The notes under the pieces: generated by a model
Databases searched by the model: none
Seen by the model: the letters and a program-made list of their open reading frames with translations, nothing else
What the model was told of the DNA's origin: nothing
Position numbers and translations under genes: made by a program
Part shown: in pieces, positions 14,631 through 32,534 of the stretch
Layout of the letters: every line of letters starts with the position of its first letter
How positions within the stretch are numbered: position 1 is the first letter of the stretch
Source: a virus
Virus record (IMG/VR): IMGVR_UViG_3300017740_000025
Location: 1-35,524 of that record
Length of the DNA: 35,524 nt
Strand: one strand, 5' to 3'

Positions 14631-15398
14631 TTATTTACCGCCAAATAAACCACCAACTAACTTAAATAGCTGTTCAGGTAAAAACTTTATAACCCCACCA
14701 AGGTCAGTGTTAAAAAAACCTTTTCCAGATGAACGCATTTTTTTTCTGTTTCCTGAAAAATCGTTAGCCACAAACCCTCCGATACCGGCGTTTGTAAATC
14801 TTTTTTGTTGCCTGTTGTTCCTTCTGCCTTGTCTAATTTCTTGTGGCGTTTGAGGGCCTGGGTCATTATCATCTAAACCAGCTTGAGCTTGTGCAGCTTG
14901 TTTTGCTGTGCCTGCTGATATAAGGCCTGTAGCTATATCAGTAATTGCACCTGTTTGCATCTGAAGGCCAGACATAACCTCCGCTTCAGCGCTAGCTTTC
15001 TCGGTTCGATATCTATCCTCCATCATACTTCTAATTGTCTTGTCCTCCTCTAAAGCAAGTAAATCAGTCTTAAACTGCTTTTCGATGTTTGACCCATAGA
15101 TGTCCATCTTTGATTGGCCTGTTTGTGTAAATCCTGACTGTAAAAGCCCCATAGCACTAGCAGCGTCCATACCAGACGCGACATCTGCTATTGTTTGCTC
15201 TTGTTGAGATATCCTTGCCAAAGCTTGTCGTTCTTGCTCAAAAGAAGGCTTGAGGTTCTTTGCTAAGTTGGTTAATTCAGGCTCTTTAAGCTGGGCTAGC
15301 CGTTTTTCACCAGATGATTTGGCGTTTGATCCGTCAATAAACTGTTTTACAGCTCCAGCTCCACCTAAAATTAATCCTAATGTTGTCATGAAAGGCAT
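14631..15398 (-). CDS. Probable internal virion protein, 255 aa (T7 gp14-like position)
   Basis: Starts with a hydrophobic, glycine-rich segment (TTLGLILGGAGAVKQFIDG) and continues as a long Ala/Gln/Glu-rich helical region (about 30-150). A second small-residue helix follows near 150-175 (AITDIATGLISAGTAKQAAQ), then a basic Arg/Lys/Asn-rich tail. This design is common in small podoviral internal or ejection proteins similar in style to T7 gp14. A second Met at residue 4 could also start it, but the first fits the promoter-like box 13 nt upstream. The gene opens the three-gene ejection set. Homology to gp14 is not claimed; the likeness is architectural. Confidence 0.6.
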   Translation of the reverse strand: MPFMTTLGLILGGAGAVKQFIDGSNAKSSGEKRLAQLKEPELTNLAKNLKPSFEQERQALARISQQEQTIADVASGMDAASAMGLLQSGFTQTGQSKMDIYGSNIEKQFKTDLLALEEDKTIRSMMEDRYRTEKASAEAEVMSGLQMQTGAITDIATGLISAGTAKQAAQAQAGLDDNDPGPQTPQEIRQGRRNNRQQKRFTNAGIGGFVANDFSGNRKKMRSSGKGFFNTDLGGVIKFLPEQLFKLVGGLFGGK

Positions 15399-15427: not shown

Positions 15428-16201
15428 TTACATGTTGCTCTTGAATACCTCTGTGTTGGCACTAAAAAGCTCTACAAATGAGGTAGACATGTTAGTCAAC
15501 GTAATCTTAGCGTGATATCCACGCACTCCATATGACTCAGCAGATGCATTTTTTACAACAAAACAAAAATCGTTTGTTGCTGGCACATTAGCTGAAGCCA
15601 CTGTAGTAATAGTTTTGTCTGTGATCTCCTGTATGACACCGATAAGTTTTGAACTTCCATCGTTAAAATACAACTCATCCCCACCTTGATTATCGGTACC
15701 ACTCTTCGAAACCTGGTTTGGTATATATCCACTAAAGGTGTATTGGTTAGACCCCGGTGAACTCTGTAGATTTCCAATGCCAAGTATAGATAATTTGTTA
15801 AAATCAAGCTTATCTGTCTCATTTCTGCGTATATAAGCGTATTTTATACCTTCTTTATCCTCAAATTTGTACGAAGAGCTGTCTCCGATAAGCCCAGATT
15901 CCAACTCACTATCTATATCTGCGTACCAACTACTAGAATTAGTCTCTAATGACAGATTTTTGAACATTTTGACAGTCGATGGTTCTTGATTCGAAGAAAA
16001 GGTCACACTACACCCATAAGAAGTGCCATAAAAGCTTCCTCTTTCCTCATTGGCATCATGCTCATACATCTCTCCGTTCTTGAATGAATACATCTTGTTA
16101 CCAAGTCTTTCCATCCACTCTGGCGTATATGCATGAAAAGAAGTCCAAGCGTTGTAGACTTCATCCCATGTAAGCGTCTTTTTGTTTGCTTCTAATGCCA
16201 T
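15428..16201 (-). CDS. Virion-associated hypothetical protein, 257 aa
   Basis: The product is rich in beta-forming and aromatic residues (WTSFHAYTPEWMERLGNKMY near 16-35) and in Ser, Thr and Asn, as in tail components. There is no signal peptide or membrane span. Its ATG overlaps the stop of the 1826-aa tail stabilisation gene by one base (TAATG), so it is probably translationally coupled to it and works with it in the tail. I do not recognise a named family; proteins of this style follow the large tail protein in marine podovirus modules, but that is recollection rather than a search. Confidence 0.6.
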   Translation of the reverse strand: MALEANKKTLTWDEVYNAWTSFHAYTPEWMERLGNKMYSFKNGEMYEHDANEERGSFYGTSYGCSVTFSSNQEPSTVKMFKNLSLETNSSSWYADIDSELESGLIGDSSSYKFEDKEGIKYAYIRRNETDKLDFNKLSILGIGNLQSSPGSNQYTFSGYIPNQVSKSGTDNQGGDELYFNDGSSKLIGVIQEITDKTITTVASANVPATNDFCFVVKNASAESYGVRGYHAKITLTNMSTSFVELFSANTEVFKSNM

Positions 16202-19200
16202 TAGTTATCGTCTTTAATTTTAGGCCATGTCTCACCTGGTGGCGTGAATCCTAAATCGTTTAATATACCCGTTAGATGATATAGATAGTAGTACTCCCAC
16301 TTATCAAATCTATCTGTATTTGAACCTGGTTTAATTGGCGCCTCACCATCACCTTGATTATCTTCATCCTCAACATCGTATCTGAAAGCAAAGTACGGCT
16401 GACTTGTTCCAACCTTCATGTCTGATAAATTATATTCTTCTCCGTACTGACCTGTTCCGTTTTCAACAGCCTCTATTAGGTTTTTAAAATGGGTGCCCTG
16501 ATTAGCGTCATTTTTAACCTGTATAATACCACCTCTATAGAAACCGGTGTTAGTTTCGTTTCTATTTAATGTTTGCGTTCTTAAATGATTTATATCCTCA
16601 TTAAAAGTGCCTGTTTTGGTGCTATTAATAGTCCAGCTACTTCCTGGGGTATAACCATCGTGGGTATCAGTCGTAACAGCTTGTGCTTCATCTTGGAAAA
16701 CAATTATTATAATAGATTCAGGTATGGGATTGCCATTTGAATCTGCTGGCAAAGTGGTTGGTGTCCAGGGGCCTGTGTTACCATTTACCTGCGTAACCAT
16801 ATAATTCACATCAACATCAGAAAGAGCTAGGAAAGTTCTTTCGTTTGCTCTATTGTGATCTGTGTTTGTATTGCTTGTTCCCCATTCTTTGTTCTCGTCG
16901 TCAGAATACATAACCTTAACCCTACTGTCGTAAAGATCGCTACCATTTAAAGCAGAATCTGTAGATTCCGGATTACTAGCGTACAGAGGCTGAATGGTCT
17001 CTTTAAGAGAATTAGCAACCATTTCGTTCAATTTAACGCCTGTTCTATCCATAGACCCAGAGGCGTCAAAATATATGTAGATAAACGTGTTTTCGTTAAT
17101 ATTGAGCGCTTGTGTGGTTACTGTAGCCACATCTGTACAAACATCAGATGCAATACCCTCAGCATTTTTAGATGACACTCTATATTGAAAGTTATCTGAC
17201 AATGAAGCTCCATCTGTGTGCTGATAAGTAATAGTTATGTTATCTTGCGCATCGTTGACAATTGCCGTCCCGTTACTAGGCGGGGTTTCTATCTCTACAA
17301 TGTAATTACTTGGCACAGTGTCGTTTGCAAGGACATCAATGACCTGTGAGCTTCCGTTTTCAATTCCTATTACCTGATCGTCAGTAAGGGCTGGAATGTC
17401 ATCTACATAATCCCATAGAAGATAAAGTTTTAGGTCTTTAGTCTCTCTATTGACCTCAAATGTAATAGTGCTTTCTTGAGTATCATCAGTAGTTTCTGTT
17501 TGTATCTCCGGGTAAGTAAAATCATTTAGCCTTGTGCCTACTTCTTCAGCGCTTAAAGTGTCAGATTCCCACATGTACCCCATCTTATTGCAATCTGTGA
17601 AGGTTCCCGTATGGTCTGCTAATATTTTATACGATGACATAACAAGATCATCGAGTTGAGCAGGTATAAGATCACTACCCATAGGGCCCGTTATTGTTTC
17701 GTATCGTGTATTACCGCTGTACTTGAACACATCAAGGTCAGAATCCCAGTTGTTACCACCTACACCTAAATGCTTAAATCTGTTAATTATTGTATTATCA
17801 GCTTCAGCGGGGTCGTTCCTGACAATAAGCACGATCTCCATGGTGTCAGGTTGTGGACATGTGTGAGTCAACGTGACGGTCGCTGTTGTTGCTGGAGTTA
17901 CAGTCACATCCATTAAAGATGAAGCTGCTAAGTCGCCTGTAGACACAGGCACCTCTACCGTTCCGGTTCCTGTAAGACCTGTTTCTGTAGTGGTCTCTCC
18001 ATTGTACAAGACACTGATAGATATTTCGCTATCGGTTTCATAGTCAATTAACGCTTTACCAGGATACACTCCTAAATTAACATCGTATTCGAATGCTGAT
18101 GATATCTTTCTTCTTATTTCTGCAGCACAATCTACGACTAATGGGTCTGCAGGTCTTTCGTCTGCTCCAATAGTAAGCACATACTGGTGATATTTTGGAT
18201 CAAAACCACCTATGTTAAAACTGTTTTTATTTGCAAACAAGTTTTCCTTGAAAAAAGACTTCATACCTTGGTAGGATATAGGCTCAAGCCCATCGCCCCC
18301 AAGCCTGAGAACCGTTCCTCTGTGTGCGTCTGTAAAGTACATTCTTCCTTGAAAGTTACTAAAGCTTTCTGGATGTCTAGATATTCCGTATTCTCCAGCA
18401 AATGCAACATCTTGCCCAAGAACCTGTTCTATTTGCGTTAGGCTTCCAGACCCATCCGGGCTTGATAGCAGGTTTTTACCATACAACACCTTTGACACTC
18501 TGTCTTCTTGAAAGACTATAAGGTCTGTGTCCCTTGCAAATAACTTCTGTATAGAACCATATTTAAGATCTAAAAACTTTGTTATGCCTCTACTCGCATT
18601 AAACTCATTGAGAGAATTATAACCTGTGTTCTCGTTGAAAGATCCGCTGAACACAAGCTTGTTCGTATCCTCTCTCTTTTCATAACCCTCTATCAGGGCA
18701 ATGTTTGGTCTAGTTTGTATGTCAAGGGCTTTCTTAAACCTATCGTCTAGTATACGAACACCTTCAATTCCATCGCCAAAACTAAAACAGTTACCAAAAC
18801 CTAGCTTGCATACGGCAGGAATGTACGGCAATGATTGATTTGAAACATTACCTAAATGAACCCCATTGCTTATTTCAAATGTTTCTTCTGTTTCGTAAAA
18901 GATGTCGTTATCGATTTCGTCAGGGTCAGTCTCAAATATCACCAAGTCGTTTGACAATATTATATTAATCTTCATAGACAAATCCCCTGTCTGGGCTTTA
19001 TTCTTTCTTTCATTTGGCTTTACGTGTAAATACCACCTGTCACCTGTAATTGTTTTCTGATAGAATGTAAGTGTAAAATGTTTTTCCTTTGTACCTTCAT
19101 TCTTAGGCACAATGTATTGAACGGCATTTACGTTGCCAGATCCAAAATCATCAACTACGGAACGAACAAAATTTGTTTCAGCCTCGAACCACTGCTCGAG

Positions 19201-21681
19201 AGCATTTCTGTTTGTTTCGGTGTTGTTTTGGTATTCTTTCTGAACAATATATTTTTTAACAAATTTGAATGCTTTTTCTTCACCAAATAGTTTACTTTCG
19301 TGGTAGTCAATTTCAAACGCAATACTTGTGTCAGGCAGAAGGTCAATATCGTAATAACCATCATCATCCCAATCACCCAGATCTCCAGGTTTTTGCTTTT
19401 GTAATATACCGTATTCTGTTTTCTTGTTTTCATTACCAGGAAGATTAATAGTCATTACTCTGTCCATACCTCCTTTTGATGGCCACATTGGCCTATGATC
19501 CCTGTTGTAATAATTTACATAGTTGTCTTCTACAAAATCCATAACAAAACCAAGCGGTCTTATTTTCATGTACAGCCCAGACCTTTCAATAATATTCCCA
19601 TTAGTAGCATCTATATTTCCAGCTATCCAACCTTCTTGATCTCCTTCAAAGTCAGGCGGAACAAAATCTTGTGCACCTTTGGTAGTGACATCAAGCACCT
19701 TACACTTCACTTCTCTGTCCATTATACCATCACCATCTCTTTTTACAAAAAGAGTCATCCCTTTCTCAACCTTGCCTATATTTGCTCCCTCCAAAAGAAC
19801 CCACCTGTAAACACCATCTTCATAAAATACTGTACCGTATATGTTAAAATGAGGTCCTTTGTTTTGTTTTACAAAAAACTTGTAGCGGTCAGCCCAATAA
19901 GGCGGTTGATGTCTGACAGTTAATTGTAAACTATTTAGCTTTGTTGAACCTGAGGGAGGGCAAAAAACTTCAGTTCCCTTTTCTCCAAAGTTTTTGCTAG
20001 GTAGCAAAACACTTGAGTAACGCCCATAACCATCCAAATAACACATTCCAACCTCGTAGCTTCTGTTTGATTTAAGAGACAAAGACGAGGAGCTTTCTTT
20101 AAGGGTTGCCGCTGCTACAGTAAATTTAAACTGCTCATCCTCTGTTTCCTCTGTTACGACCTCAGGATCTGGGTCGCCATCATAAACAGCAGTAAGCACA
20201 GGCGCCCTCAAAGTAAATGTATTTGTTGTTGTCGCTGATGATTCTAATGAGAACTCACCGTACTCCTCTCTTATTATTGGCAGATTTGGCTTAAAAACAG
20301 TTTCTACATTATTCTTGAAAAACCCATTTAATGCATCCAGAAGTTCTATGAAATCAGCAGATTCAGTAAATTTTTTAATATTTTGATAGTTCTGAGAGAA
20401 AACAATACCAACTACTATCTCAAGTTTTCCACCGCCGTATGTTTCTGGCTCTACTCCTTCTGTTTCAGAAAAAAGATCTATGCCAAAAGTAATCGATCTT
20501 CCTTTTTTTAACTCTAATCCAGATCCGTCAAACTCACAAGTTATAAGATCTTCACTTATCTCAATTACAAAAGGCTCACCTGTATACTCTGCCGAAACAA
20601 CTTCAGCCGAAAAGTTTATATTGATCTTCTCTTTACTTTCCTCTTCATCTGTCAAATCATATTGTGATGTTGTATTACCGAATATCAATCTATCACCAAT
20701 AAACTCTTGTGACTTTGCGGTCAAAGGAATATCGTCGTATATTCTATTTACTTCGTCGGCAGGTAGAGTTTTGTATATTTTTTTATTTGTAAACTCGTAT
20801 GTGTAATCCCTATCGTCTAAAATAGATTTTTCTTTTTTATTAATGCTTTCAACCACATAAAGGTTTGGTTCTGTTGGAAACTTAAAAAGCAATTGAACAT
20901 CTGTAACCCTTTTGTCTCCTGAATCGTATGTAATTTTGTAGCCATTAAAAATATTCTGCATGCCTTCATTAACCATAGATGCAAAATCCACGTCTGATTC
21001 CCCGGGGAAAAACTTAAAGTATGTAAAAGAAGATGGTGCAGAGTAGCCACCGTCTAAGTATCTGTATCTATAACCAAAAGAAAAGAAGTTTTCACGCACA
21101 GCATTCTCTGTTGAATTTGCTGTATTGAAGGGTACAACAACAGGTGCTTTTCTCGGAGGCTTTTTGTAAAGAGATATATCGTCCTCGTAAAAATTGTTTT
21201 TACCAAATGCTTTTGCTCTTTCGATATCAACCATTCTAGGTTGATTCAGTCCATCAGTAAAAAGAAGCAGTTTTGACTTCTTGGCAGGATTATAAACTAC
21301 ATTAACACCTGTAATCTTGTAATCTTTGTTAAACTTTAGTATCTGCTCATCTGTGTCTCTTTCGTCAGCAAGAACAGTTGAGGTTATAGCTTTTTTTACA
21401 TCATGCTCAAAGACGTAGGAATACCCAAGGTCATTTACAACAAACCAATATATTCTTTCGTCACCTTCGTCAGATACCGAGCCTATACATTCAGGGTTAT
21501 TGCCTAGCCCTAAAGATGTGACCTTAACGTTACCCTTTTCATTTTCTATAGCACCAGCATCAGAACCTGAAGTATTTAAGACTCTAATATTATAGCCGTC
21601 AATAAACTCGCCACTAGGAATAAGACGTTCATCGATGTCCTTGTTCATTTTCCCGGTGGAAAATAGATTTTTAATTTTCAT
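16201..21681 (-). CDS. Large tail stabilisation protein with C-terminal Ig-like and von Willebrand factor A domains
   Basis: The N-terminus (STGKMNKDIDERLIPSGEF, 9-27) matches the pattern GKMNKDLDERLVPNGEY that I associate with the stab-type tail protein of crAss-like and marine podoviruses. It continues with beta-rich sequence such as RYRYLDGGYSAPSSFTYFKF and IGDRLIFGN. At 1826 aa it is about twice the size I expect for this family (near 900). The extra C-terminus carries beta domains: one Thr/Val-rich region near 1240-1310, an Ig/cadherin-like domain near 1435-1520 (VIDVLANDT and FQYRVSS), and a von Willebrand A domain from about 1528. The last has strand TFIYIYFDASGSM, whose DxSGS MIDAS motif lies at 1539-1543, and strand SIIIIVFQDEA near 1660. 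The vWA domain may bind a divalent metal and a ligand. It likely forms the tail hub or needle with an outward adhesive end. Confidence 0.75.
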   Translation of the reverse strand: MKIKNLFSTGKMNKDIDERLIPSGEFIDGYNIRVLNTSGSDAGAIENEKGNVKVTSLGLGNNPECIGSVSDEGDERIYWFVVNDLGYSYVFEHDVKKAITSTVLADERDTDEQILKFNKDYKITGVNVVYNPAKKSKLLLFTDGLNQPRMVDIERAKAFGKNNFYEDDISLYKKPPRKAPVVVPFNTANSTENAVRENFFSFGYRYRYLDGGYSAPSSFTYFKFFPGESDVDFASMVNEGMQNIFNGYKITYDSGDKRVTDVQLLFKFPTEPNLYVVESINKKEKSILDDRDYTYEFTNKKIYKTLPADEVNRIYDDIPLTAKSQEFIGDRLIFGNTTSQYDLTDEEESKEKININFSAEVVSAEYTGEPFVIEISEDLITCEFDGSGLELKKGRSITFGIDLFSETEGVEPETYGGGKLEIVVGIVFSQNYQNIKKFTESADFIELLDALNGFFKNNVETVFKPNLPIIREEYGEFSLESSATTTNTFTLRAPVLTAVYDGDPDPEVVTEETEDEQFKFTVAAATLKESSSSLSLKSNRSYEVGMCYLDGYGRYSSVLLPSKNFGEKGTEVFCPPSGSTKLNSLQLTVRHQPPYWADRYKFFVKQNKGPHFNIYGTVFYEDGVYRWVLLEGANIGKVEKGMTLFVKRDGDGIMDREVKCKVLDVTTKGAQDFVPPDFEGDQEGWIAGNIDATNGNIIERSGLYMKIRPLGFVMDFVEDNYVNYYNRDHRPMWPSKGGMDRVMTINLPGNENKKTEYGILQKQKPGDLGDWDDDGYYDIDLLPDTSIAFEIDYHESKLFGEEKAFKFVKKYIVQKEYQNNTETNRNALEQWFEAETNFVRSVVDDFGSGNVNAVQYIVPKNEGTKEKHFTLTFYQKTITGDRWYLHVKPNERKNKAQTGDLSMKINIILSNDLVIFETDPDEIDNDIFYETEETFEISNGVHLGNVSNQSLPYIPAVCKLGFGNCFSFGDGIEGVRILDDRFKKALDIQTRPNIALIEGYEKREDTNKLVFSGSFNENTGYNSLNEFNASRGITKFLDLKYGSIQKLFARDTDLIVFQEDRVSKVLYGKNLLSSPDGSGSLTQIEQVLGQDVAFAGEYGISRHPESFSNFQGRMYFTDAHRGTVLRLGGDGLEPISYQGMKSFFKENLFANKNSFNIGGFDPKYHQYVLTIGADERPADPLVVDCAAEIRRKISSAFEYDVNLGVYPGKALIDYETDSEISISVLYNGETTTETGLTGTGTVEVPVSTGDLAASSLMDVTVTPATTATVTLTHTCPQPDTMEIVLIVRNDPAEADNTIINRFKHLGVGGNNWDSDLDVFKYSGNTRYETITGPMGSDLIPAQLDDLVMSSYKILADHTGTFTDCNKMGYMWESDTLSAEEVGTRLNDFTYPEIQTETTDDTQESTITFEVNRETKDLKLYLLWDYVDDIPALTDDQVIGIENGSSQVIDVLANDTVPSNYIVEIETPPSNGTAIVNDAQDNITITYQHTDGASLSDNFQYRVSSKNAEGIASDVCTDVATVTTQALNINENTFIYIYFDASGSMDRTGVKLNEMVANSLKETIQPLYASNPESTDSALNGSDLYDSRVKVMYSDDENKEWGTSNTNTDHNRANERTFLALSDVDVNYMVTQVNGNTGPWTPTTLPADSNGNPIPESIIIIVFQDEAQAVTTDTHDGYTPGSSWTINSTKTGTFNEDINHLRTQTLNRNETNTGFYRGGIIQVKNDANQGTHFKNLIEAVENGTGQYGEEYNLSDMKVGTSQPYFAFRYDVEDEDNQGDGEAPIKPGSNTDRFDKWEYYYLYHLTGILNDLGFTPPGETWPKIKDDN

Positions 21682-21682
21682 A

Positions 21683-22570
21683 CTACTTTATCCACTTATC
21701 TCTACCCCTAAGAATCCTGGTTAGATCCCCAATTGTGATAGAGCTTAATCTGATTTTCGCGTTCCTTAAAGATGCAAGGGCTTGTTTTTGCGCTCTACGT
21801 ACTATATATTCCTGCACACCAAACTTTTGCTTGAGTACGTTGGAAACCATATAGTCATACATAAACGTTTCTGCTAGCTTGTGTATTTTGATCTCGTTGT
21901 CTGCAAGACCATACATACCATCTGAAACGTATTCTATAATAATGTTTTTATCTGATAAATCTGAGCTAAATAAAATATAGCCCTGGTTTTTATCTAAAAC
22001 ATAACTTCCGTTGCTAGATGCGGAGGCTGTATCCATCCCAAACCTTTTACCAACTAAATTGTTTTCCGGCTCGCTAACTTTTCCTGATTTTGCGTCTCGC
22101 CAATTTTGCTCGATAACAGGAGTGCCAGTAAGCGCATTGTCGTCGTTGTCCATCAAAATATTTTTGAATGGCGTATTATCCTGCAAGTAACTCTTTGGAG
22201 TGGCTGTGTTGAAGTTTTGTTTTATTTCGTAAGTAAGACCCTTGTCGCCCACGTAAGACACTTTCACAGCGCTTACAAAGTCGTGTGGCAGGTGAACCTT
22301 CAGTGTCGCTGGAATTTCTACCTCAAAACCTCTTATTTCACGTAGAGCGTCGTAGTGTAGCTCTTGTAAACCTCTTTTGGCGTGGAATATAACCTCGTTT
22401 CTATCTACTTTATTGATAACCTTGTCGTCACCTACATACGTCAACAAAAAGTTGTTGATAATGTCCTGTAACAACATATATTGGTATGTTCCCCAATTGT
22501 CAGACCTTGGCTCTGTGCCGCTGTTTTGATAGTATTCTCTTTGATCTATATGTGTTCCAATTGTAGGCAT
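21683..22570 (-). CDS. Head-tail connector / tail tubular protein (P22 gp4-like position)
   Basis: Probable ring protein linking portal to tail. The 295-aa product has a helical segment with a conserved look (DRNEVIFHAKRGLQELHYDALR, about 56-77) followed by EIPATLKVHLPHDFVSAVKVSYV. This arrangement, with helices then beta strands containing LPHDFV, is typical of the tail-tubular or gp4-like adaptor of crAss-like and marine podoviruses. The C-terminal part is helical and basic (RRAQKQALASLRNAKIRL). It begins three bases after the 227-aa gene stop and ends one base before the tail stabilisation gene start. The specific equivalence to P22 gp4 or T7 gp11 is inferred from pattern and order. Confidence 0.65.
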   Translation of the reverse strand: MPTIGTHIDQREYYQNSGTEPRSDNWGTYQYMLLQDIINNFLLTYVGDDKVINKVDRNEVIFHAKRGLQELHYDALREIRGFEVEIPATLKVHLPHDFVSAVKVSYVGDKGLTYEIKQNFNTATPKSYLQDNTPFKNILMDNDDNALTGTPVIEQNWRDAKSGKVSEPENNLVGKRFGMDTASASSNGSYVLDKNQGYILFSSDLSDKNIIIEYVSDGMYGLADNEIKIHKLAETFMYDYMVSNVLKQKFGVQEYIVRRAQKQALASLRNAKIRLSSITIGDLTRILRGRDKWIK

Positions 22571-22573
22571 GTC

Positions 22574-23257
22574 TTATGAGTTTTCTTTAACAAAGTTATT
22601 TTGCTCTTCGTTTGTAGCAAGCTGAACAACATCCGCCTCCCTAATACTGAGTCCTGCAAACTTGCATATCTTAATGACAAGTTCTGTTTCGTCTGAAGCT
22701 GGGATTTCAAAATCAGTAGAGCTATCTTCATTGTATACAGGATCTCCTGCTAACATAGTGTGACCCCAATGTGGATCTAGTGGTTTTCTGACATAGTTAG
22801 CTGATACTGTGGTTATTATACTGCTGGGACTAACAAATAAACTGTTGTCAGTTCTTTTGTATATAGGGTATGTTACAGATGGTTTTGTAAGATTGCTGTT
22901 CACAATCATGTCGTACTTATGATTTGCGACCTCTTGCACTATTTTACCACCATATACCACATTAATAAGTTTATACAGGTCATCTGGTGTGTTAAAATGA
23001 TCTGCATCGTAGGTTAGCGGGGCGTTCTTTGTGAATATATCTATTTTATTTTGAATATGAGAAACGCTATCACCATAGTTCAGCGCTTTCTTTCTTGAGT
23101 TTTGTGCAGCTACAGCTCTAGAATAATCAGAAAAATATTGCTCGAATATTTCTAACTGAGATTGCTTTGCAAAATAATCAAATTCTAATGGTGATACATA
23201 CCCTCTATTGTCCTTGTTTAGCAAAAACAAAACAGTGTTTCTAACGCTATTAATCAT
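22574..23257 (-). CDS. Connector / tail structural protein, 227 aa
   Basis: Starts with VRNTVLFLLNKDNRGYVSPL (4-23), then DYFAKQSQLEIFEQYFSDY, a helical N-terminus I associate with a structural protein found between capsid and tail-tube genes in marine Bacteroidota phages. The middle contains strands such as DLYKLINVVYGGKIVQEV and a segment VSANYVRKPLDPHWG. The ATG lies 13 nt after a perfect -7 box, and upstream is a strong terminator, so this gene heads its own transcription unit with the tail genes. It probably forms a head-completion or adaptor ring. No enzyme motifs are visible. Confidence 0.6.
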   Translation of the reverse strand: MINSVRNTVLFLLNKDNRGYVSPLEFDYFAKQSQLEIFEQYFSDYSRAVAAQNSRKKALNYGDSVSHIQNKIDIFTKNAPLTYDADHFNTPDDLYKLINVVYGGKIVQEVANHKYDMIVNSNLTKPSVTYPIYKRTDNSLFVSPSSIITTVSANYVRKPLDPHWGHTMLAGDPVYNEDSSTDFEIPASDETELVIKICKFAGLSIREADVVQLATNEEQNNFVKENS

Positions 23258-23272
23258 AGGATATATTTTCTA

Positions 23273-23300
23273 CAAAAGTACAAAAAAAAAGAGGTCACAA
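23273..23300 (-). promoter_or_regulatory. Putative promoter for the tail genes, overlapping a terminator
   Basis: On the minus strand a TTG (23300-23298) is followed after 17 nt by TACTTTTG (23280-23273), a perfect TAnnTTTG -7 box extended to TACTTTTGTA. Both elements fit the reported Flavobacterium spacing of 17-23 nt. Initiation would lie just before the ATG at 23257, leaving a very short leader. The TTG is inside the hairpin of the upstream terminator. Confidence 0.6.
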
Positions 23301-23311
23301 TTTGCGACCTC
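23282..23311 (-). terminator. Intrinsic terminator after the 256-aa head gene
   Basis: Reading leftward, GAGGTCGCA (23311-23303) and TGTGACCTC (23299-23291) form a 9-bp stem with one G-U pair and a 3-nt AAT loop, followed at once by nine T residues. This is a textbook Rho-independent terminator. It sits 24 nt after the end of the 256-aa gene and just before the tail genes. Confidence 0.85.
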
Positions 23312-23335
23312 CCCCTTTCACGGATTTGTTTGTGC

Positions 23336-24106
23336 TTATAGCTTATTCGTGATATTTTGAAGCACATCCAGACCTTCGTCTGTCTTAAAGAACAAAGCTA
23401 AGGAATGATATAGGTTCTCTCCAAATGGAGCCACCATAATTTTATTGTTTTTATTATCAGCCCACGTAACTGTCCTATTGTCACCCTTGACATGAAGTAT
23501 TCCCATCTCTACAGCTCTAACAGCTATGTTTCTAAGCTTTAGGTTTTCATCATCAGCAAGAGTCATAAACTCTGATGGATTGTTTTTAGCCCAAATAATC
23601 ATGTCTCTTCTTAACTCAGATGATGTTAAAAGACTAACATTAGACTTCATGATGACCCTAGCAACAGCTTCAAGGTCGTCTATATCCATATCTTTTGCTG
23701 CTATCTGTGCGTCTAGTTCAGAGTAAATACTCTCAACCTCTTTACTTGCATTCTTCTCTTTATCTAACTCTGTAAACTTCTTATTAAAGTCAGGGTGTAT
23801 AAGTAAAAACTTCTGCAAGTTTACATTCCAATCGGGAACAATAAGTTTTCCGTTCTCAAAAACAATAGGCTCTAAAGTAGCAACGCCGTCTTGCTCATCT
23901 ACAAAAGGACTTAGTTGATTTGTTGCATAACGCAATGCTCTATTTAGCTTGCCGTCAAAATAAGTGAGAGGTTTTCTGCCTGTGTGTTTTACCGATATCA
24001 TTGATCGGATGGGTGATTTGTTGCCAGTTAAAATGAACACCCTTGTTTTTTGTTCTAAATCTGGGAAAAGTGCATTATACCCAGATACTGTAATAGTTTT
24101 TGACAT
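23336..24106 (-). CDS. Hypothetical virion protein downstream of the major capsid gene, 256 aa
   Basis: Lies between two intrinsic terminators, directly after the capsid gene. The N-terminal third is beta-like (ITVSGYNALF, then TRVFILTGN), the centre is charged and helical (KEVESIYSELDAQIAAKDMD near 125-145), and the end contains RNIAVRAVEMGILHVKGDN followed by KIMVAPFGENLYHSLALFF. Proteins of this kind occur next to capsid genes in marine phages, but I cannot name a function; a head or head-tail accessory protein is plausible. No promoter is evident after the capsid terminator, so expression probably depends on partial readthrough, giving less product than capsid. Confidence 0.6.
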   Translation of the reverse strand: MSKTITVSGYNALFPDLEQKTRVFILTGNKSPIRSMISVKHTGRKPLTYFDGKLNRALRYATNQLSPFVDEQDGVATLEPIVFENGKLIVPDWNVNLQKFLLIHPDFNKKFTELDKEKNASKEVESIYSELDAQIAAKDMDIDDLEAVARVIMKSNVSLLTSSELRRDMIIWAKNNPSEFMTLADDENLKLRNIAVRAVEMGILHVKGDNRTVTWADNKNNKIMVAPFGENLYHSLALFFKTDEGLDVLQNITNKL

Positions 24107-24129
24107 TTTATTATAATTTGATTTAATTT

Positions 24130-24166
24130 AAAAAAAAGGAGGGAAACTTAAATAAGCCCCCTCCTT
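24130..24166 (-). terminator. Intrinsic terminator after the major capsid gene
   Basis: Reading leftward, AAGGAGGG (24166-24159) pairs perfectly with CCCTCCTT (24143-24136) over 8 bp, and a T run (24137-24130) follows. The 15-nt loop contains CTTA and TAAG, which can pair further. It starts only 8 nt after the capsid stop, as expected for the most abundant late message. Confidence 0.8.
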
Positions 24167-24174
24167 ATGTAATA

Positions 24175-25581
24175 TTACTGCAACAAGATGAAGTTATTTA
24201 CACCCATTGTGCAAAGCGCACGCTCTGACAAGAAGTGAGCCTCCATGTTGTCTTTATCAGTAGTCGCTGCACCACCTGCAGAACCAACAACCCAAGACTT
24301 ATATTTTCTGTCTTCAGTTGGCGATACTCGGTAGCGAACGTGTAGGAATGGACGCTTAGCGTTTTCTCCCATTACTTGATCATAAACAGTTGTAGTACCT
24401 GCTGGTACAACGATACCATCAATACCACCAACGTTACCACGAGTAGTAGCATCGTTTAGATATTTCCAGTCTGACTTGTAGAAGTCATACCCGATACGGA
24501 ATCCTGTAAATCCAAGATTTAACGCCATATCTTCGTCATTGTCAAACAAACCATAAGAAGCAGTTGATGCTCCTGAGTTGTTTTGAGCAGCTAAAACTTT
24601 GTCAATATCAAAAGAAGTAGAACGATTTACGAAAATAACATTTTCTTGAATCGAACCTTCTTTGTCAAGAACTTTAGCTAAAGCTTCAAGGTCATCACGA
24701 TCTGTGATTGTTCCAGAAGAAACGTTACCGTTGTTTTCTACTTCGAAGAAGAGACCTTTTGTTCCTTTGTAGCCTACATCTGTACCAGTAGTTAATGCTG
24801 CTACACCAGAACCTGTACCTGCAGGCTCACCTTCAATCATAGAAGTTTCTAGGTAGTCCTCAAAGCGTAAACGAGTTTCGCTTTCAGATTTCAAATACCA
24901 AAGGTAACCAGAAGCACCGTTTTCTGAGGTAACTTCTACCCAACCGATATGAGCCATTTCAGAACCTGAAACTTCATATTTATCTTTGATGATGATTGGG
25001 TTGTTTTCTTTAGAATCGAAGGCTGCTTCAAGAGATCCAGTCATGCCATCTGTCCCTTTTTGGAATTCAGAACCATAAACAAAGATTGTTACAGCATCGT
25101 TTGCTGCATACAATGCATCGCCACCTGAAGTTTTTTCAACTAGGCTAAAGTTTTGGTAAAGAGCAACATCAATACTATCTGCAGCAGATGCATCAGTAAT
25201 GAGGGCTTTTGCTTGAACGCCATTAGGTCCGTTAATGATAATAGTCTGGTTAGTACGGAAGCTGTGTCCTGTTACCGCAATGGTATCTGCGTCTGTAACA
25301 GTTCCTGAAGCTTGTACGTGTAGTCTTCCTTGCTCACTCCACTTAATTAAGTCAGAGCTAGAAGGGATCTCAGCGCCAACCATACGCAAGAAAGATGCTA
25401 CAGAACGGTTTCCGTAACGCTCAAATTCTTTCTCATATAGATCTGGTAAATATTGCTGAGCAAAGTCATAATCGCTATTAGAAAGGTAGTTATCATTGGA
25501 TAACGACTTCCCTGGAGCGGGTGTTAATGAAGTAGATCCTGCGACAGCTCCACTTCCATTAAAAGTAATAGATTGTGCCAT
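24175..25581 (-). CDS. Major capsid protein
   Basis: Main head shell subunit, presumably HK97-fold. The 468-aa product follows the acidic scaffold-like gene and precedes a strong terminator, the usual context. The N-terminus is Ser/Gly/Ala-rich, then comes YLPDLYEKEFERYGNRSVAS (about 45-64), a helix of the N-arm or E-loop region, and SSDLIKWSEQGRLH. Residues near 85-175 form a beta-rich insert (VTDADTIAVTGHSFRTNQTI) that could be a surface domain. The C-terminal half has DKVLAAQNNS, FTGFRIGYDFYKSDWKYLND and KRPFLHVRYRVSPTEDRKYK. Codon choice looks more regular than in neighbours (frequent GTA, GCT, ACT), consistent with high expression. The assignment rests on context and style rather than a database match. 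Confidence 0.8.
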   Translation of the reverse strand: MAQSITFNGSGAVAGSTSLTPAPGKSLSNDNYLSNSDYDFAQQYLPDLYEKEFERYGNRSVASFLRMVGAEIPSSSDLIKWSEQGRLHVQASGTVTDADTIAVTGHSFRTNQTIIINGPNGVQAKALITDASAADSIDVALYQNFSLVEKTSGGDALYAANDAVTIFVYGSEFQKGTDGMTGSLEAAFDSKENNPIIIKDKYEVSGSEMAHIGWVEVTSENGASGYLWYLKSESETRLRFEDYLETSMIEGEPAGTGSGVAALTTGTDVGYKGTKGLFFEVENNGNVSSGTITDRDDLEALAKVLDKEGSIQENVIFVNRSTSFDIDKVLAAQNNSGASTASYGLFDNDEDMALNLGFTGFRIGYDFYKSDWKYLNDATTRGNVGGIDGIVVPAGTTTVYDQVMGENAKRPFLHVRYRVSPTEDRKYKSWVVGSAGGAATTDKDNMEAHFLSERALCTMGVNNFILLQ

Positions 25582-25607
25582 TTTTTAATGTGTTTTAAGG
25601 TTTTTAA

Positions 25608-26765
25608 TTATCTTTTTTTTATCTTAAGTCCAGATCCAAACCCTTGGCTGCTATCTACAACCTTAAATTTAGATCCAGGTTTCGATGAATCAACGTTTGT
25701 GCGCACATTCATATCAATATTCTTTCCATCCTTGACCACTTCATTAACCGCATCGGCTTTACCTTGCTCATAAAAGAACTTAGCATAAGACTCTGGGTTC
25801 ATAGCCATGTGTAAAGATTGATGATATTTATTAGCGTCCTTCAAGAAACCTTTTTCATCCACAAAACGTTGTATGAAGTTGTTCAAATCTGATTGATTTT
25901 TGGCAACTTCGTTAACGCTTTTTGGCTTGTAGGTCACAGTTTTCTCGCCGAGATTATATTCAAAACCTTTGAATTTATCATTAAAAAAACTTGATGTCTT
26001 CTGCTCAAATATTTTTCTTTGCTCATTAGACAGTTTTTCTTGGTTTGCAGCCTCATCATTATATTGCTGGTAGAACTCAACAGCATTTTTAACATCGTCA
26101 GGAAAAGCATCCATACTTGACTCAAGTGGTGCTTTGTATTTTTCCTTTATATTGTTAAAATACTCTTTTGCTCTATGCAGCTCTTGCTTTTTCTCTAAAC
26201 TCTTCCTTTTCCTATCGCTTTCTGTATCGACATTTTCATCAACTTCATATTTTTCGTTGATTAGATAGCTAATATCATTGTCATCTAGCTCTGGGTTAGT
26301 TTGCATGTAGTACTCACGCAACAAAGCTTGATCTTCATACTCACTAACATCTTCGTTAGCTTTAACAAAATCCTTCAAACCACGATTGGTTTGTTCCTTG
26401 TATTGCAGGTACTTTTCAACTTCCTCTGGAAGGTCTAGTACTTCTTCATTATTTGAAAGAACGTCTTCTAATTCTTTTGCATTAATCTGATATCTATCTG
26501 TTAGATAATCATTTACAATGTCTTCTTTTTTGAGCTCCTGTGGCTTTCCTTCCTTTGGCTCTGTCTCAGTTGCTTCGGGCTGTTGTTCTTCTACAACCTC
26601 CTCTTCTTTTTGCTCAACTGTATTTTCTTCCTTCACATCAGCAACTTCCTCCTTTTGAGGCTCTGCTTCAGTTGTCTCTGGTTCTTGGACTTTTGCCTCC
26701 TCCTCTTTTACAGGAGGTTTAGACAAATCGACTTTAAAATCAACGTCCTGATTTACATCACTCAT
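25608..26765 (-). CDS. Capsid scaffolding-like protein
   Basis: Probable internal scaffold for procapsid assembly. The 385-aa protein has an extremely acidic, Glu/Pro/Val-rich N-terminal 100 residues (VKEEEAKVQEPETTEAEPQK as an example). A highly charged helical middle follows (about 190-290) with coiled-coil character. A short basic end, GLKIKKR, suits the helix or loop that contacts capsid protein. There are no Cys residues or enzyme motifs. It sits between portal and major capsid genes, the usual scaffold position. No protease gene is adjacent and I see no protease motif here. A promoter-like box lies upstream. Confidence 0.75.
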   Translation of the reverse strand: MSDVNQDVDFKVDLSKPPVKEEEAKVQEPETTEAEPQKEEVADVKEENTVEQKEEEVVEEQQPEATETEPKEGKPQELKKEDIVNDYLTDRYQINAKELEDVLSNNEEVLDLPEEVEKYLQYKEQTNRGLKDFVKANEDVSEYEDQALLREYYMQTNPELDDNDISYLINEKYEVDENVDTESDRKRKSLEKKQELHRAKEYFNNIKEKYKAPLESSMDAFPDDVKNAVEFYQQYNDEAANQEKLSNEQRKIFEQKTSSFFNDKFKGFEYNLGEKTVTYKPKSVNEVAKNQSDLNNFIQRFVDEKGFLKDANKYHQSLHMAMNPESYAKFFYEQGKADAVNEVVKDGKNIDMNVRTNVDSSKPGSKFKVVDSSQGFGSGLKIKKR

Positions 26766-26790
26766 AATAATATTATATTAAATTTTATGG

Positions 26791-26800
26791 TACAAAATTA
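26791..26800 (-). promoter_or_regulatory. Putative promoter -7 box for scaffold and capsid genes
   Basis: On the minus strand TAATTTTGTA matches the -7 consensus TAnnTTTG perfectly and shares the GTA extension with other boxes here. It lies in the AT-rich gap between portal stop and scaffold ATG, 25 nt before the start codon, behind a run of eight T residues. No TTG is found at 17-23 nt upstream. Confidence 0.4.
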
Positions 26801-26810
26801 TTAAAAAAAA

Positions 26811-29258
26811 CTATGCGTTTTCTTGACCCATCATATTTCTAAAGTTAGCTAAAACATCAGAGTTTTCACCTTCCTTTTCGAAATCAACAGGAGGCGTGTT
26901 ATCTTTGCGTTGTCTAATTAATTTACTCTGTTGAGAGGCTTGCTTGTCTGTTCTGTTATCTTTACGATTCTCTTTATACTCCTCTCTGCCCTTAAAAATA
27001 TTAGCTTCCGCTTGTTTTAGTTCTAGGTCGAATTGATGCTTAAGTTTTAACATCTCTGCGTCAAGTTGCTGTTTTGCTTGCATACGTTGCAACTCTAACT
27101 CCGCTTTCATTTGCTCCATCTGAGATTCAGATTGAGTTTTAAATTGTTCTTCCTGCATTCTTGATTGAGAAGCAGCTTGAGCAGATTGAGTATTTGATTG
27201 AGTCTGCATCTGGATGGCTGCTTGTTGCTTTTCCATCTCTTTCTTCTCTTTTCTTACCTTACGTATCTTCAGTAAACTGTTTGCAAGAGTAATATCTTTT
27301 ATGCTGCGAATATCAATAGCATCCTCTAAGCCTATCTGTCCTGATTGAATCGATTGCTGAATATTTTGCTCCAACATTTGTCTTTCTTCTTCATCAGGCT
27401 CAATTTCAATGAATATACCAAAGTCATGTAGATGAAGTGATTTTACTTCTTGAACAATTTCAAAATTATTTTTCCCTATCATCTTCGCAAAGTCTTCAGA
27501 GAAATCAGCATACTCTAGTATATCGGATATTCTGTAAGATATAGCTTCTGCAAGCCTTTTTGTTAGGAATATACCAGACTGAATAACGTGTCTTGTTGCT
27601 GTATTACTATTTAAGGCAGCTAGTTTTTGTAAACCTACAAGAGCATATTGATCAGGGTTGCTTCCGTCTCTCGCCTCATTGATGCCCGTTACAGCTCTAA
27701 TCATGTTGAGCTGGTAGTTGTACATATTAATAAGACTTGCGATCTTAGCATTTGATCCACTGCTAGTTAACTCTTGGATAGGAACTCGAGCGTTGTTAAA
27801 GTCACCGTCCTCCGTGTAACTTCTACCGATAACACTACCTGTTTGGAAATACATAGATAGGGCTTCAGAAGGGTTATAAGACGCCCCATTACCAAGGTCT
27901 ACACTATTTAAACCATCAGCATCAATAAACACACCATCTGGTATCATTTTCGCAACGACCTGTTGTAGTTTTAGGTGTGTTAATTGTATTTGGTCAGCAA
28001 AAGGGATCATTCTTTTGACTAAAGAATCTACATTACCTTTTGACATTTTTATGGCAGATGCAATATATGGGGGTAGAGCTTTTTGAAAAGCCGATTTTGG
28101 CCTAACCATATTACTCATTACTCCCCACTTTAATAAATGATTTGTTCCTAAAACAAGCACACCTTCATACCATACGTCTATCCTTCTTGCTACCCTTGTA
28201 AATCTAGCTTGTTCTGTCTTAGGAGGGTTAAAGTTACCGTCTTTTTTTAACGGCTTTTCGCCACCGTTTTGGTTTTGCTTAACCTTGTATACAACTTCAC
28301 GATCTGTTTTGTAGCAAAAGTAAAGAAGACTAACGTTAGATTTATCTAAACCACTCTGACTCTGAAGGTTCTGTGTGCTTCTGTAACCATCAAACCTACT
28401 TGCAAGTTTTGATATTTCCTCTATTTCTTCCTGTGTAAGACTTGGATTTATTTTTTTTATCTCTGTAACATGTACAGATTTTACCTCTCCGAAGTAATAA
28501 CAATCTCTAAAATTTGGGTCTTCAGTTGGTGAGTATACAAAATTTACAGGATCAACATACTCTAGACGAACACCGTGGTGAGGGTCAAAAGAGTGTTTCA
28601 TAGCTGAAATACCAAGAACAACATTATCTTCGTCTATTCTTCTTTTTAGCTCGTCGTATTCGTTAAGCTCTAAAATGGTTTTAATAGCTGCCTCTTCAGC
28701 AACCTCCACGCCTTGCTTATACTTAAGATCCATATACAGCCCTAATTCCTCATCAGTCTCTGGTATTTCTTCTTGTGGAAATAAAAATGCATCAACTCCT
28801 GTATTTTGCTTTATCATAGACAGCACAGGTTTTGCTGACATATCTGATTGCATATCCCTTTTAAACATCTCCCTTTTCATAGAAGACAAATCATCTACTG
28901 CTTCAACTTTAACATCTAATAGCCTATTAGATATGCCATTGACTACAACATCTACAAACTTAGGAATGATAGGGACGGGTGTCCAATCAAGGTTTAAATA
29001 AGAAAGATCGCCATTGACGGATAATTCGTTTTTGTACTTATCAACAGGCTGCTGCCCTCTAGCGTACAATCTTCTAGTTAAATATTCAGATCTTATTTCC
29101 CCATATATACTACTACCGTGGTCTCTTGCGAACCATTCGGACTCAATAGCATGCCCAACACGGAGACCATACTCATACGTATCCTTCTCTATGTCTGACA
29201 CAAATTGATTAGGAAAACCACTGCCTGAAATGAACTTCGGCTTATTTATCATAATCAC
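26811..29258 (-). CDS. Portal protein
   Basis: Dodecameric DNA gate of the head, placed right after the large terminase. The 815-aa length is large, like portals of crAss-like phages. The N-terminal region has EYLTRRLYARGQQPVDKYKN (about 59-78) and DWTPVPIIPKFVDVVVNGI, a motif style frequent in such portals. The central part has RRIDVWYEGVLVLGTNHLLKW. QLTHLKLQQVVAKMIPDGVF (about 430-450) and INEARDGSNPDQYALVGLQ fit the stem and clip region. From about 665 to 780 a Gln/Lys/Glu-rich coiled coil forms a long tail. The start shown is a GTG forming GTGA with the terminase stop; an ATG two codons in (29252), preceded by AGGTGA, is about equally likely. Confidence 0.85.
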   Translation of the reverse strand: MIMINKPKFISGSGFPNQFVSDIEKDTYEYGLRVGHAIESEWFARDHGSSIYGEIRSEYLTRRLYARGQQPVDKYKNELSVNGDLSYLNLDWTPVPIIPKFVDVVVNGISNRLLDVKVEAVDDLSSMKREMFKRDMQSDMSAKPVLSMIKQNTGVDAFLFPQEEIPETDEELGLYMDLKYKQGVEVAEEAAIKTILELNEYDELKRRIDEDNVVLGISAMKHSFDPHHGVRLEYVDPVNFVYSPTEDPNFRDCYYFGEVKSVHVTEIKKINPSLTQEEIEEISKLASRFDGYRSTQNLQSQSGLDKSNVSLLYFCYKTDREVVYKVKQNQNGGEKPLKKDGNFNPPKTEQARFTRVARRIDVWYEGVLVLGTNHLLKWGVMSNMVRPKSAFQKALPPYIASAIKMSKGNVDSLVKRMIPFADQIQLTHLKLQQVVAKMIPDGVFIDADGLNSVDLGNGASYNPSEALSMYFQTGSVIGRSYTEDGDFNNARVPIQELTSSGSNAKIASLINMYNYQLNMIRAVTGINEARDGSNPDQYALVGLQKLAALNSNTATRHVIQSGIFLTKRLAEAISYRISDILEYADFSEDFAKMIGKNNFEIVQEVKSLHLHDFGIFIEIEPDEEERQMLEQNIQQSIQSGQIGLEDAIDIRSIKDITLANSLLKIRKVRKEKKEMEKQQAAIQMQTQSNTQSAQAASQSRMQEEQFKTQSESQMEQMKAELELQRMQAKQQLDAEMLKLKHQFDLELKQAEANIFKGREEYKENRKDNRTDKQASQQSKLIRQRKDNTPPVDFEKEGENSDVLANFRNMMGQENA

Positions 29259-31507
29259 CTAATAATTTCACTAACAAAACCTTTGTTACTGTATTTTGCA
29301 AAGTTAAGATTTATTTGATTACGTTTTTCTTGTCTGTTATTCTTTGTCGTTTGATTTGCCATAATCGCAAAACCCGAACTTACTGTGGCATCAAACCTGG
29401 TTCTGTTATTTATATCATAGTTTGCCCAATCCAACAAAGTTCTATTAAAAAACATATTTCCACAACTTCCAAAGTCCGTATCTCTTTCGTCTTTTATCAC
29501 ACCAACATGAGTTTGAATAAAGCTTTCTATACCTTCTGCATGTACAGAAATTACGGATTGAGATGAAGGTATGCCACCGAGCTCTTTTTCTGCTCTTGAC
29601 AGTATGTTTTTATGTTTATCTGGTCTATTTATAGAAAAAGGCCTGTAACCCCTGTCCTTGAGATAATATAGTAATCTAGGTTTGTTGTTTTCGACAAGAA
29701 TTGGCATGCCATAAAAATGTAAAGCCATTAACACATCTTCATAAAATATCTCTGCTGTTGGAGGTCTGGATATGTATTCTAGGAAAAACATATTAGTTGG
29801 AGCGTCATCCATGTGAAATTTAGTCATTCCATGCAAAGATCCTTTTGATCCACCACCACCAACTGTTCCCGATATATCATATGAGTCACAACCAAAGGCT
29901 CCTATATGAGCGTTACCAGGGAACTTACGTCCGTTTCTTTCCTCTACATTGTTCATCATTTCTTTGGATGGTATCCAACTTAAAAAAAACCGACCTTTTC
30001 TATCAGGAGAAAACACAACTTCTGTATCCCTTTGACCATTCTTCCAGTAAAAGTTTCCCCTACTTACACTTGATTTGATAGCAAATGAATCGTTGTAATC
30101 TATCTGCTCATATATTCTTGTCAAATTAAATAAGGTGTTCTTTGACTCGTCTCTAAACGCATGTGACTCAGTACGTGGGAATTGACGGTAAAATTCATTT
30201 AATGCATCTGGATCATTTTTGAGACTATCCACTTCGTTTTGCCAATATTGTAATGCGCTTTGGTGAATGTCATCACCATTTACGCTGGTTATTGGCGAAT
30301 CTGGTGTCTCTAAAACAGGTTGCCCATACTTATCTATAAACCCCTCCATGTTCCACTCCATAGGAATAAACAAGCTATACATGCCACTTTTGGTTTGTCC
30401 GTTTGAGTTGCGTGTTGTGGGGTCAGAGTCATAAAACAGTTTTTTAAAGTTGTTTCCACCTTTATCTAAAGCATTACTTGTTGATCCCATCATGCACTTA
30501 CCGATAACCCTACTACCAAGCCTCAAACATGTTTTGGTAACCCTCCAATTGTTTAGTATGTTATCTGGCTTTTCCCACTTACCACTTTCATCGTGAACAA
30601 GAAGTGCAAGTTTTTCACCATCGTAACTGTTGTCCCCTGTATTCTTCCAATCTATTGTGGTATCTAGTCCCTGTAAGTCACTAATAATGTTTGTGTTAGC
30701 TATTGATTTTCTTGTGAGTTTTGATGCAGGAACTCTATAGGCTAACTCAGACTTCGGCCTATCCATACCATCCTGAATTGGTTTGAAAAAAAATGGGTAG
30801 TTAACAGATATAGGTACAACTTTATCTGTAAACATTTTTTTTGCATCAGCACCCGTCTTTGACAATATCCCAAACCTAGCATCTGATGTTATGGTGGCTT
30901 GATTGACGGCTTCAGCTGATGACATAAATGAAAACCCAGATCTCCTGTTCTTTAAGTAACACATTCCATAACACCTAGAATCTGCTTTACACGCTTCCCA
31001 GAATATAAAAAATATTCTATTTGACTCCCTGTACTCCGGCTTACCTATATCAATTTTAGTCCATTGTAGGTACATATAATGACTCCCTGTAATGTACGTT
31101 GGCGTTCCTTTGTTGTAAAACCAATAACCATTCTCTCTGTAGTTAAACACCTTTTCGATATAAGGAACCCATGTTTCTTTGAAATCACGGGGCATTTCAT
31201 TCCACTGAAATATGGTCTGTAATGGGCGTAGTTGTTTCGGATACTCAGATGCTTCCCAGAACTGATCTTTCCGTTTAACTGCCCTTTTATGAATATCTGC
31301 AGGTTTTTTTGGAAGAGCTATGTTTAAATGATTAATTCTGACTACATCTCCTATCGTACCATCTTTGGATATAACTACAGCATCTATATCAGGATTGTAT
31401 CCATAACGGAACCCCTTTTTTTTGTTTGTGTCATCTAAGATCTTTTTTGGTATAAAGTCCTTTAGTACAACACCTAAATTATTTAGATCTTCGTTCTGCA
31501 AAACCAC
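29255..31507 (-). CDS. Terminase large subunit
   Basis: ATP-driven DNA packaging motor and nuclease. The 750-aa product is long for TerL, as in crAss-like and related phages. The ATPase has a divergent P-loop region (KNRRSGFSFMSS, about 184-195) and a clear Walker B with catalytic Glu, ALLVHDE, with Asp306 and Glu307. The motif GSTSNALDKGG follows as coupling motif. The C-terminal RNase H-like nuclease shows FGCDSYD with Asp541, an acidic Glu in PILVENN, and TRFDATVSSG with Asp706. The first codon is probably the GTG at 31507, overlapping the upstream gene by 29 nt; a TTG two codons later is possible. It is followed by the portal gene with a 4-nt overlap. Confidence 0.9.
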   Translation of the reverse strand: MVLQNEDLNNLGVVLKDFIPKKILDDTNKKKGFRYGYNPDIDAVVISKDGTIGDVVRINHLNIALPKKPADIHKRAVKRKDQFWEASEYPKQLRPLQTIFQWNEMPRDFKETWVPYIEKVFNYRENGYWFYNKGTPTYITGSHYMYLQWTKIDIGKPEYRESNRIFFIFWEACKADSRCYGMCYLKNRRSGFSFMSSAEAVNQATITSDARFGILSKTGADAKKMFTDKVVPISVNYPFFFKPIQDGMDRPKSELAYRVPASKLTRKSIANTNIISDLQGLDTTIDWKNTGDNSYDGEKLALLVHDESGKWEKPDNILNNWRVTKTCLRLGSRVIGKCMMGSTSNALDKGGNNFKKLFYDSDPTTRNSNGQTKSGMYSLFIPMEWNMEGFIDKYGQPVLETPDSPITSVNGDDIHQSALQYWQNEVDSLKNDPDALNEFYRQFPRTESHAFRDESKNTLFNLTRIYEQIDYNDSFAIKSSVSRGNFYWKNGQRDTEVVFSPDRKGRFFLSWIPSKEMMNNVEERNGRKFPGNAHIGAFGCDSYDISGTVGGGGSKGSLHGMTKFHMDDAPTNMFFLEYISRPPTAEIFYEDVLMALHFYGMPILVENNKPRLLYYLKDRGYRPFSINRPDKHKNILSRAEKELGGIPSSQSVISVHAEGIESFIQTHVGVIKDERDTDFGSCGNMFFNRTLLDWANYDINNRTRFDATVSSGFAIMANQTTKNNRQEKRNQINLNFAKYSNKGFVSEIIR

Positions 31508-32308: not shown

Positions 32309-32309
32309 C

Positions 32310-32534
32310 CTAAAAGTTTATATTGTACTCAACAGATACAGGTATGTTTTTATTGAACTCTTTCCATAAAAAAACTTCGTTGTTCTTTTCTACATATACA
32401 CGGAAAGAGATTTTGTCCTCATCAAAGTCAATGAGGTGTATGGTATAAGCGCCATTCAAAACATCTTGGTTAACGATGTAATGCATGGCGCTGCCCTTGT
32501 AATCAGACCCTATGGATATTTTACGAATTTCCAT
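32310..32534 (-). CDS. Small hypothetical protein, 74 aa
   Basis: Unrecognised beta-rich protein. It begins MEIRKISIGSDYKGSAMHYIV and contains alternating strands (AYTIHLIDFDEDKISFRVYV). A longer version starting nine residues upstream overlaps the preceding gene by 41 nt; I prefer the ATG at 32534, which overlaps by 14 nt and begins with a conserved-looking strand. It ends two bases before the GroES-like gene starts. The context places it in the fibre-to-packaging portion of the leftward operon, and nothing shows a specific role. Confidence 0.65.
   Translation of the reverse strand: MEIRKISIGSDYKGSAMHYIVNQDVLNGAYTIHLIDFDEDKISFRVYVEKNNEVFLWKEFNKNIPVSVEYNINF

Follow-up and report, generated by a model that had tools for sequence, protein, structure and literature searches.

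The head and tail genes of the marine bacterial virus studied are separated by a short site in which a putative intrinsic terminator runs directly into a predicted promoter, and the same combination is conserved at this gene boundary across a group of related phages. We consider it likely that the site is the intrinsic terminator of the head unit fused to a sigma-ABfr promoter for the tail-barrel ring unit, both being of host type. The parts are ordinary; their combination is conserved and unusually compact. The site lies on the minus strand of the window (the whole stretch of 35,524 nucleotides that was analysed), between a gene for a 256-aa protein (stop at 23336) and a gene for a 227-aa protein (ATG at 23257). 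In the order in which they would be transcribed, the features discussed are as follows.

24175 to 25581, minus strand: gene for a 468-aa virion structural protein (phrog_13704), the probable major capsid protein, with a capsid role suggested by gene order.
24142 to 24161, minus strand: terminator-like hairpin after the probable capsid gene, with a T run and no -7 box after it, an internal contrast to the site studied.
23336 to 24106, minus strand: gene for a 256-aa protein of unknown function (phrog_34748), the last gene before the terminator.
23291 to 23311, minus strand: predicted terminator hairpin, with a 9-bp stem (23311-23303 with 23299-23291) and a loop at 23302-23300.
23298 to 23300, minus strand: TTG, a candidate -33 element separated by N17 from the -7 box and not conserved throughout the group.
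23282 to 23290, minus strand: T9 run, predicted to be the terminator U-tract and promoter positions -22 to -14, i.e. the AT-rich -18 segment (numbering from PMC6847099).
23273 to 23280, minus strand: TACTTTTG, matching the consensus TAHHTTTG of the -7 box of Flavobacteria.
23258 to 23268, minus strand: predicted 11-nt leader, for which the rule of 4-5 nt between box and start (PMC6847099) predicts a +1 at 23268 or 23267.
22574 to 23257, minus strand: downstream gene for a 227-aa protein (phrog_14543), a probable ring protein of a crAss-like tail barrel.

The hairpin arms, GAGGTCGCA (23311-23303) and TGTGACCTC (23299-23291), enclose the loop AAT and can be extended through G-U pairs to 23319-23283. 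The 78-nt intergenic RNA has a predicted fold of -23 kcal/mol (z = -3.4), which 1 of 200 shuffles equalled, and the site combines a stable G+C hairpin with a T-rich tract directly after it, as is characteristic of intrinsic terminators. A single G separates T9 from TACTTTTG, and a further 15 nt lead to the ATG. These results bear out a first-pass annotation of the sequence in its description of a strong hairpin with a T run, of a -7 box one base beyond that run and of a very compact arrangement; the 5' end that it proposed, at 23265-23268, encompasses both positions given by the F. johnsoniae spacing rule. Its distance of 54 nt from the top of the hairpin to the ATG holds from the 5' foot (23311) and not from the apex. 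Terminator and promoter activities, and the positions at which they would occur, are predictions from these features.

The placement of the site at a head/tail boundary is supported by the genes on either side. Genes for the terminase, portal and probable capsid proteins (phrog_6681, 6547 and 13704) lie upstream on the same strand. The 227-aa protein has a predicted structure (pLDDT 86, pTM 0.74) with best fold matches to the phicrAss001 tail-barrel chains E, D and F of 7qoj (E 3.6e-7 to 9.9e-7, TM 0.51-0.57), followed by tail chains of phages Pa223 and SU10. A profile of the ring protein found nothing meaningful among the sequences of solved structures, the relatives having come via the predicted fold. 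In addition, the window protein at 15428-16201 scores 40.4 bits against PF25729, the C-terminal domain of the crAss muzzle (cut-off 27). The resemblance to tail-barrel ring proteins supports the head/tail assignment of the first-pass annotation, the boundary probably lying between head genes plus one gene of unknown function and tail-barrel rings. Among the named relatives are Maribacter phage Panino, Flavobacterium elemo phages, Tenacibaculum Gundel_1 and Cellulophaga phi38:1, Calle_2, phi46:3, phi19:3, phi18:3 and phi13:2; since these are flavobacterial phages, the host is most likely a flavobacterium. Megablast of window positions 12000-35524 found no near-identical phage. Elsewhere in the window, a 2126-aa protein (6319-12699, minus strand) has a DTDGDG stretch and no PHROG (E 0.001) or Pfam (E 0.01) match.

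For the window's clade, an ungapped alignment of 25 distinct sequences, anchored at the ATG, gives an identity to the majority base of 0.93-0.95 across the 30 nt preceding the ATG, 0.70-0.81 from -60 to -31 (the hairpin and part of the T run) and 0.42-0.54 from -61 to -180, where the value is partly depressed by indels. Stem pairing is retained in 91.6% of cells, compared with a shuffled mean of 88.6% (0 of 500 shuffles as high) and 41-61% when the stem is slid, and 3 of 500 shuffles matched the covariation score. Pairing is kept mostly via one-sided or G-U changes: two-sided changes affect 2 of 9 stem pairs, a number not in excess over shuffles (252 of 500), and 4 cells (32 of 500), while further pair types were matched by 230 of 500. 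With the signal being modest, covariation was rejected as proof of the stem.

The site ranks first among 11 terminator-like sites in positions 16000-35524 (17 pairs with G-U), although the number of such sites there is not above chance (11.1 expected). With terminators called by a stricter rule, the window contains 2 of them and 1 fused unit, versus means of 0.53 and 0.0033 in 300 dinucleotide shuffles, of which 1 had any fused unit; chance is ruled out as the source of the fused unit. Window-wide, neither TANNTTTG (50 found, 43.3 expected; 18 of 100 shuffles with at least as many) nor TTG-N17-20-TANNTTTG (6 found, 4.2 expected; 23 of 100 shuffles) is enriched. Motif counts alone were thus rejected as proof, and the significance of the site rests on its position and conservation. 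A sigma-70 promoter scan, which uses the wrong motif for this host, was at chance level (61 found, 62.1 expected), and a search of the whole window at Rfam gathering scores found no known RNA family.

For the wider comparison, loci came from five scans of viral contigs (two of them giving the best 80 of 588 and the best 80 of 91 relatives) and from named phages. Clustering at 70% protein identity gave 55 clusters with 218 complete genes; 11 of 229 genes were left out as incomplete, as were L051 and L052 (from an initial 58 loci) and L291, in which the gene start is absent. The 218 loci hold some duplicates (IMG/VR copies of phi38:1, Calle_2, Gundel_1 and an elemo phage) which affect the locus count and not the cluster count. 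Two detectors were used: the strict rule for window shuffles and genome-wide counts, and a looser RNAfold rule for cluster, locus and control counts, for which TA[ACT][ACT]TTTG was the box in the fused count and TANNTTTG the box in the test for G.

By the looser rule, 37 of the 55 clusters (the window's included) and 141 of 218 loci have the fused unit ahead of the same gene, and in 32 of the 37 it is present in every tested member; with a single representative per cluster, 35 of 55 are fused. The clusters are mutually related and hence not independent events. Among 173 other gene starts in the representatives (first ATG of ORFs of at least 150 aa, same strand), 3 have the fused unit, and none of 2200 shuffled upstream regions has it. 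Hairpins of distant members have unrelated sequences (GCCCCTTTGGGGC in phi38:1, GGCACTTTTTAATCGAAGTGCC in L090, GGGTGTAATAACACCC in L111), and in the example shown for each cluster passing RNAfold a T run of 5-9, mostly 7-9, starts at the stem foot. The sites resemble Rho-independent terminators in their G+C stem, short loop and T run at the stem foot, and differ in that the -7 box of the next promoter stands 1, 2 or 3 nt past the T run in 31 of 35 fused representatives. These counts point to a real unit, conserved at this gene boundary across the viral group. Carriers include Cellulophaga phage phi38:1 and the Flavobacterium elemo phages, the records of which name bacterial host strains.

Under the detector used, 18 of the 55 clusters are without the fused form. 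None of the 27 loci of the L096 cluster is fused; the boxes read there, TATCTTTA or TATCTTAG, have a terminal A or are short by one base. When boxes ending in A were accepted, an earlier clustering counted 5 of 21 members of this group as fused. The elemo phages have both terminator and box, with a gap of 6, and were scored without a T run in one pass of the looser rule because an A-ending box was picked. Panino, the phi18:3 type and Gundel_1 have the box and no adjoining terminator, and the other non-fused clusters have, as judged by eye without folding, just a G-then-T-rich stretch further upstream. Across both strands of 365,686 bases of the representatives we observed 13 further fused units, 11 on the same strand upstream of the focal gene, 1 downstream (Gundel_1) and 1 on the window's other strand. 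Genome-wide by the strict rule, 1 of 2 terminators in the window is fused, and phi38:1 has one unit (listed twice) among 11 rows; the corresponding counts in the first 50,000 bases are 2 of 8 for elemoA, 0 of 5 for Panino, 1 of 5 for Gundel_1 (at another place) and 0 of 7 for phi18:3, in which that stretch stops short of the focal gene.

The promoter half of the site is consistent with the sigma-ABfr promoter of Bacteroidota as described for F. johnsoniae in the sections of PMC6847099 consulted, i.e. TAHHTTTG with almost no G at -10 or -9, a start site 4-5 nt past the box, and AT-rich segments near -18 and -28 that are stronger than the -33 motif, itself weak. In 52 of 55 representatives a TANNTTTG box lies at most 45 nt from the gene. 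G is found at 0 of 104 of its two free positions, in agreement with the published host rule; at other TANNTTTG matches, G occupies 71 of 508 free positions on the same strand and 97 of 416 on the other. When an earlier, smaller set is aligned by its boxes, T is the most frequent base at each position from -21 to -15, in 16 to 23 of 23 clusters. The phage sites share with the host promoter (PMC6847099) the -7 box, the exclusion of G and the T-rich DNA near -18, and differ in that the T-rich segment doubles as the predicted U-tract and that, in some members, the TTG near -33 is embedded in the hairpin.

The first-pass annotation had placed this TTG in the descending arm and proposed that folding and promoter recognition share the same bases. 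In the window, TG does lie in the descending arm, with the first T in the loop; as a general feature the placement does not hold. Of the 35 fused representatives, 14 have a TTG in the interval from -36 to -27, above the background of 15% per 10 nt, and several close relatives (the L023, L044 and L054 types) have none at the window's position, for which reasons the TTG was rejected as an essential shared element. It appears to contribute in some members and not to be a requirement. The sharing of bases instead concerns the T run, which is predicted to be at once U-tract and AT-rich -18 promoter segment.

Among relatives, the box lies 3 nt before the ATG in L087, L094, L097 and L133, and in the L096/L103 group TATCTTTA lies a few nt before it, such proximity predicting a ring-protein mRNA that is leaderless or nearly so. 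Separately, a weaker second fused unit is present on the plus strand of the window at 5380-5431, with a CCCTC...GAGGG hairpin, TTTTTT and then TAAATTTG, which ends 3 nt short of the in-frame ATG at 5431 in an ORF listed at 5425-5886; here also a nearly leaderless mRNA is predicted.

In the reading that we prefer, the host polymerase would end the head RNA in the T run, with the hairpin and U-tract acting in the RNA of the upstream unit, whereas as DNA the T run would provide the AT-rich spacer directly upstream of the TAHHTTTG -7 box. Host holoenzyme would then start the ring/tail RNA about 15 nt further on, near 23268, with an 11-nt leader into the ATG. Termination is presumably near 23284-23282, as for intrinsic terminators generally, in which case the two RNAs would not overlap. 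The likely benefit is that ring/tail expression could be set independently of the head unit with almost no extra DNA, and the first-pass term 'switch' of transcription units may be apt in this sense.

That an independent terminator and promoter simply touch through the shortness of the intergenic space, their overlap being without regulatory meaning, has close to an even chance of being correct. Intergenic spaces are short at the window's junctions, and hosts have the arrangement occasionally: for one stem class, AAAGCC...GGCTTTTTTT, 4 of 127 terminators are fused and 1 has the box at 20-26 nt in 149 genomes of the family of L200's genome (Flavobacterium hydrocarbonoxydans by its title), a count that ignores kinship and in which one of the 4 comes from the genome used to choose the family. 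Hosts thus have the arrangement, at a low frequency. Scanning of genome contigs gave at least 118 stretches, with 45 Bacteroidota, by their titles, among the 80 records listed. Compaction as such sits less well with the rarity of fused units at the other gene starts of the representatives.

It is also possible, if rather doubtful, that the terminator is leaky and the promoter a top-up, such that tail-ring mRNA comes mostly from read-through and the hairpin mainly lowers the dose of tail relative to capsid. Consistent with this, no -7 box comes after the hairpin and T run that follow the probable capsid gene, which makes read-through the probable source of RNA for the gene beyond, and 67 transcribed regions in F. 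psychrophilum are classed as partial termination in the portion of PMC9723704 consulted. The near-universal box and its lack of G at the free positions, however, indicate that the promoter itself is under selection. In the elemo phages the junction equivalent to window 24142-24161 is itself a fused unit, the upstream one among the further units counted above, located between a capsid-type gene and its next gene.

Alternatively, one polymerase might release the head RNA, stay on the DNA, keep or regain sigma and reinitiate about 15 bp ahead, with the consequence that tail-ring transcription follows head transcription. Such coupling we regard as unlikely. After intrinsic termination, the polymerase of E. 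coli remains on the DNA in most cases and can restart at nearby promoters, in one assay after 37% of terminations (PMC6978380, PMC6978322), and the 1-3 nt gap would fit; this support, however, stems from E. coli, where restarts usually reverse direction, with in-cell evidence for the antisense kind (PMC6978322), and where reinitiation was not observed in vivo (PMC6978380). Forward reinitiation is called not yet shown in vivo in the parts of PMC6978380 and PMC11347151 consulted. Terminators have been argued to sit near promoters for recycling, which is estimated to work over ~1000 bp (PMC11347151); a gap of 1-3 nt is then not needed, nor is it by itself evidence for recycling. The E. coli and B. 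subtilis terminator-promoter pairs (PMC6978380, PMC11347151) likewise have a promoter close to a terminator, but at distances of up to ~1000 bp, as opposed to 1-3 nt as a rule at one gene boundary. The tight gap may merely reflect the promoter's need for T-rich -18 DNA. It is improbable that crAss-like flavophages have, in the fused unit at their head/tail boundary, a device dedicated to handing the terminating host polymerase to the next promoter, with tail-ring output following head output. Hairpins of the terminator kind can protect RNA 3' ends, but a role for the hairpin solely as a 3'-end stabiliser or processing site, with the box as the only active signal, is very unlikely given the T run at the stem foot.

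The resemblance to phicrAss001 covers the head/tail-barrel boundary, including the fold of the downstream protein and the PF25729 match in the window, and does not extend to the fused unit, nine phicrAss001 junctions inspected by eye having no TAHHTTTG fused to a terminator. Its gp26/gp27 junction has an A+T-rich hairpin with T5 and then TAGGTTTG, which violates the no-G rule. At gp39/gp40 (L357, ~15078-15125) an TATATTTG box lies between the inverted-repeat arms AAAACCCTTG and CAAGGGTTTT, with a TTG in the left arm 20 nt before TATATTTG, a different form of hairpin-promoter overlap. From titles and the opening lines of abstracts, in a search with most subscription papers outside its scope, we recognised no paper that describes a terminator fused to a promoter in flavophages or at this junction.

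The site provides a bounded, conserved case, in a phylum with an unusual promoter, in which one T run is predicted to serve both RNA, as U-tract, and DNA, as promoter spacer. Because carriers have named host strains, natural phages are available for tests of termination, initiation and polymerase recycling; transcriptomes of phi38:1 have reportedly been published. Were the handover to prove true, this would be a natural site at which evolution has fixed the spacing of terminator and promoter for forward reinitiation. The fused unit may also be of practical use as a sign for calling the borders of transcription units in uncultured flavophages.
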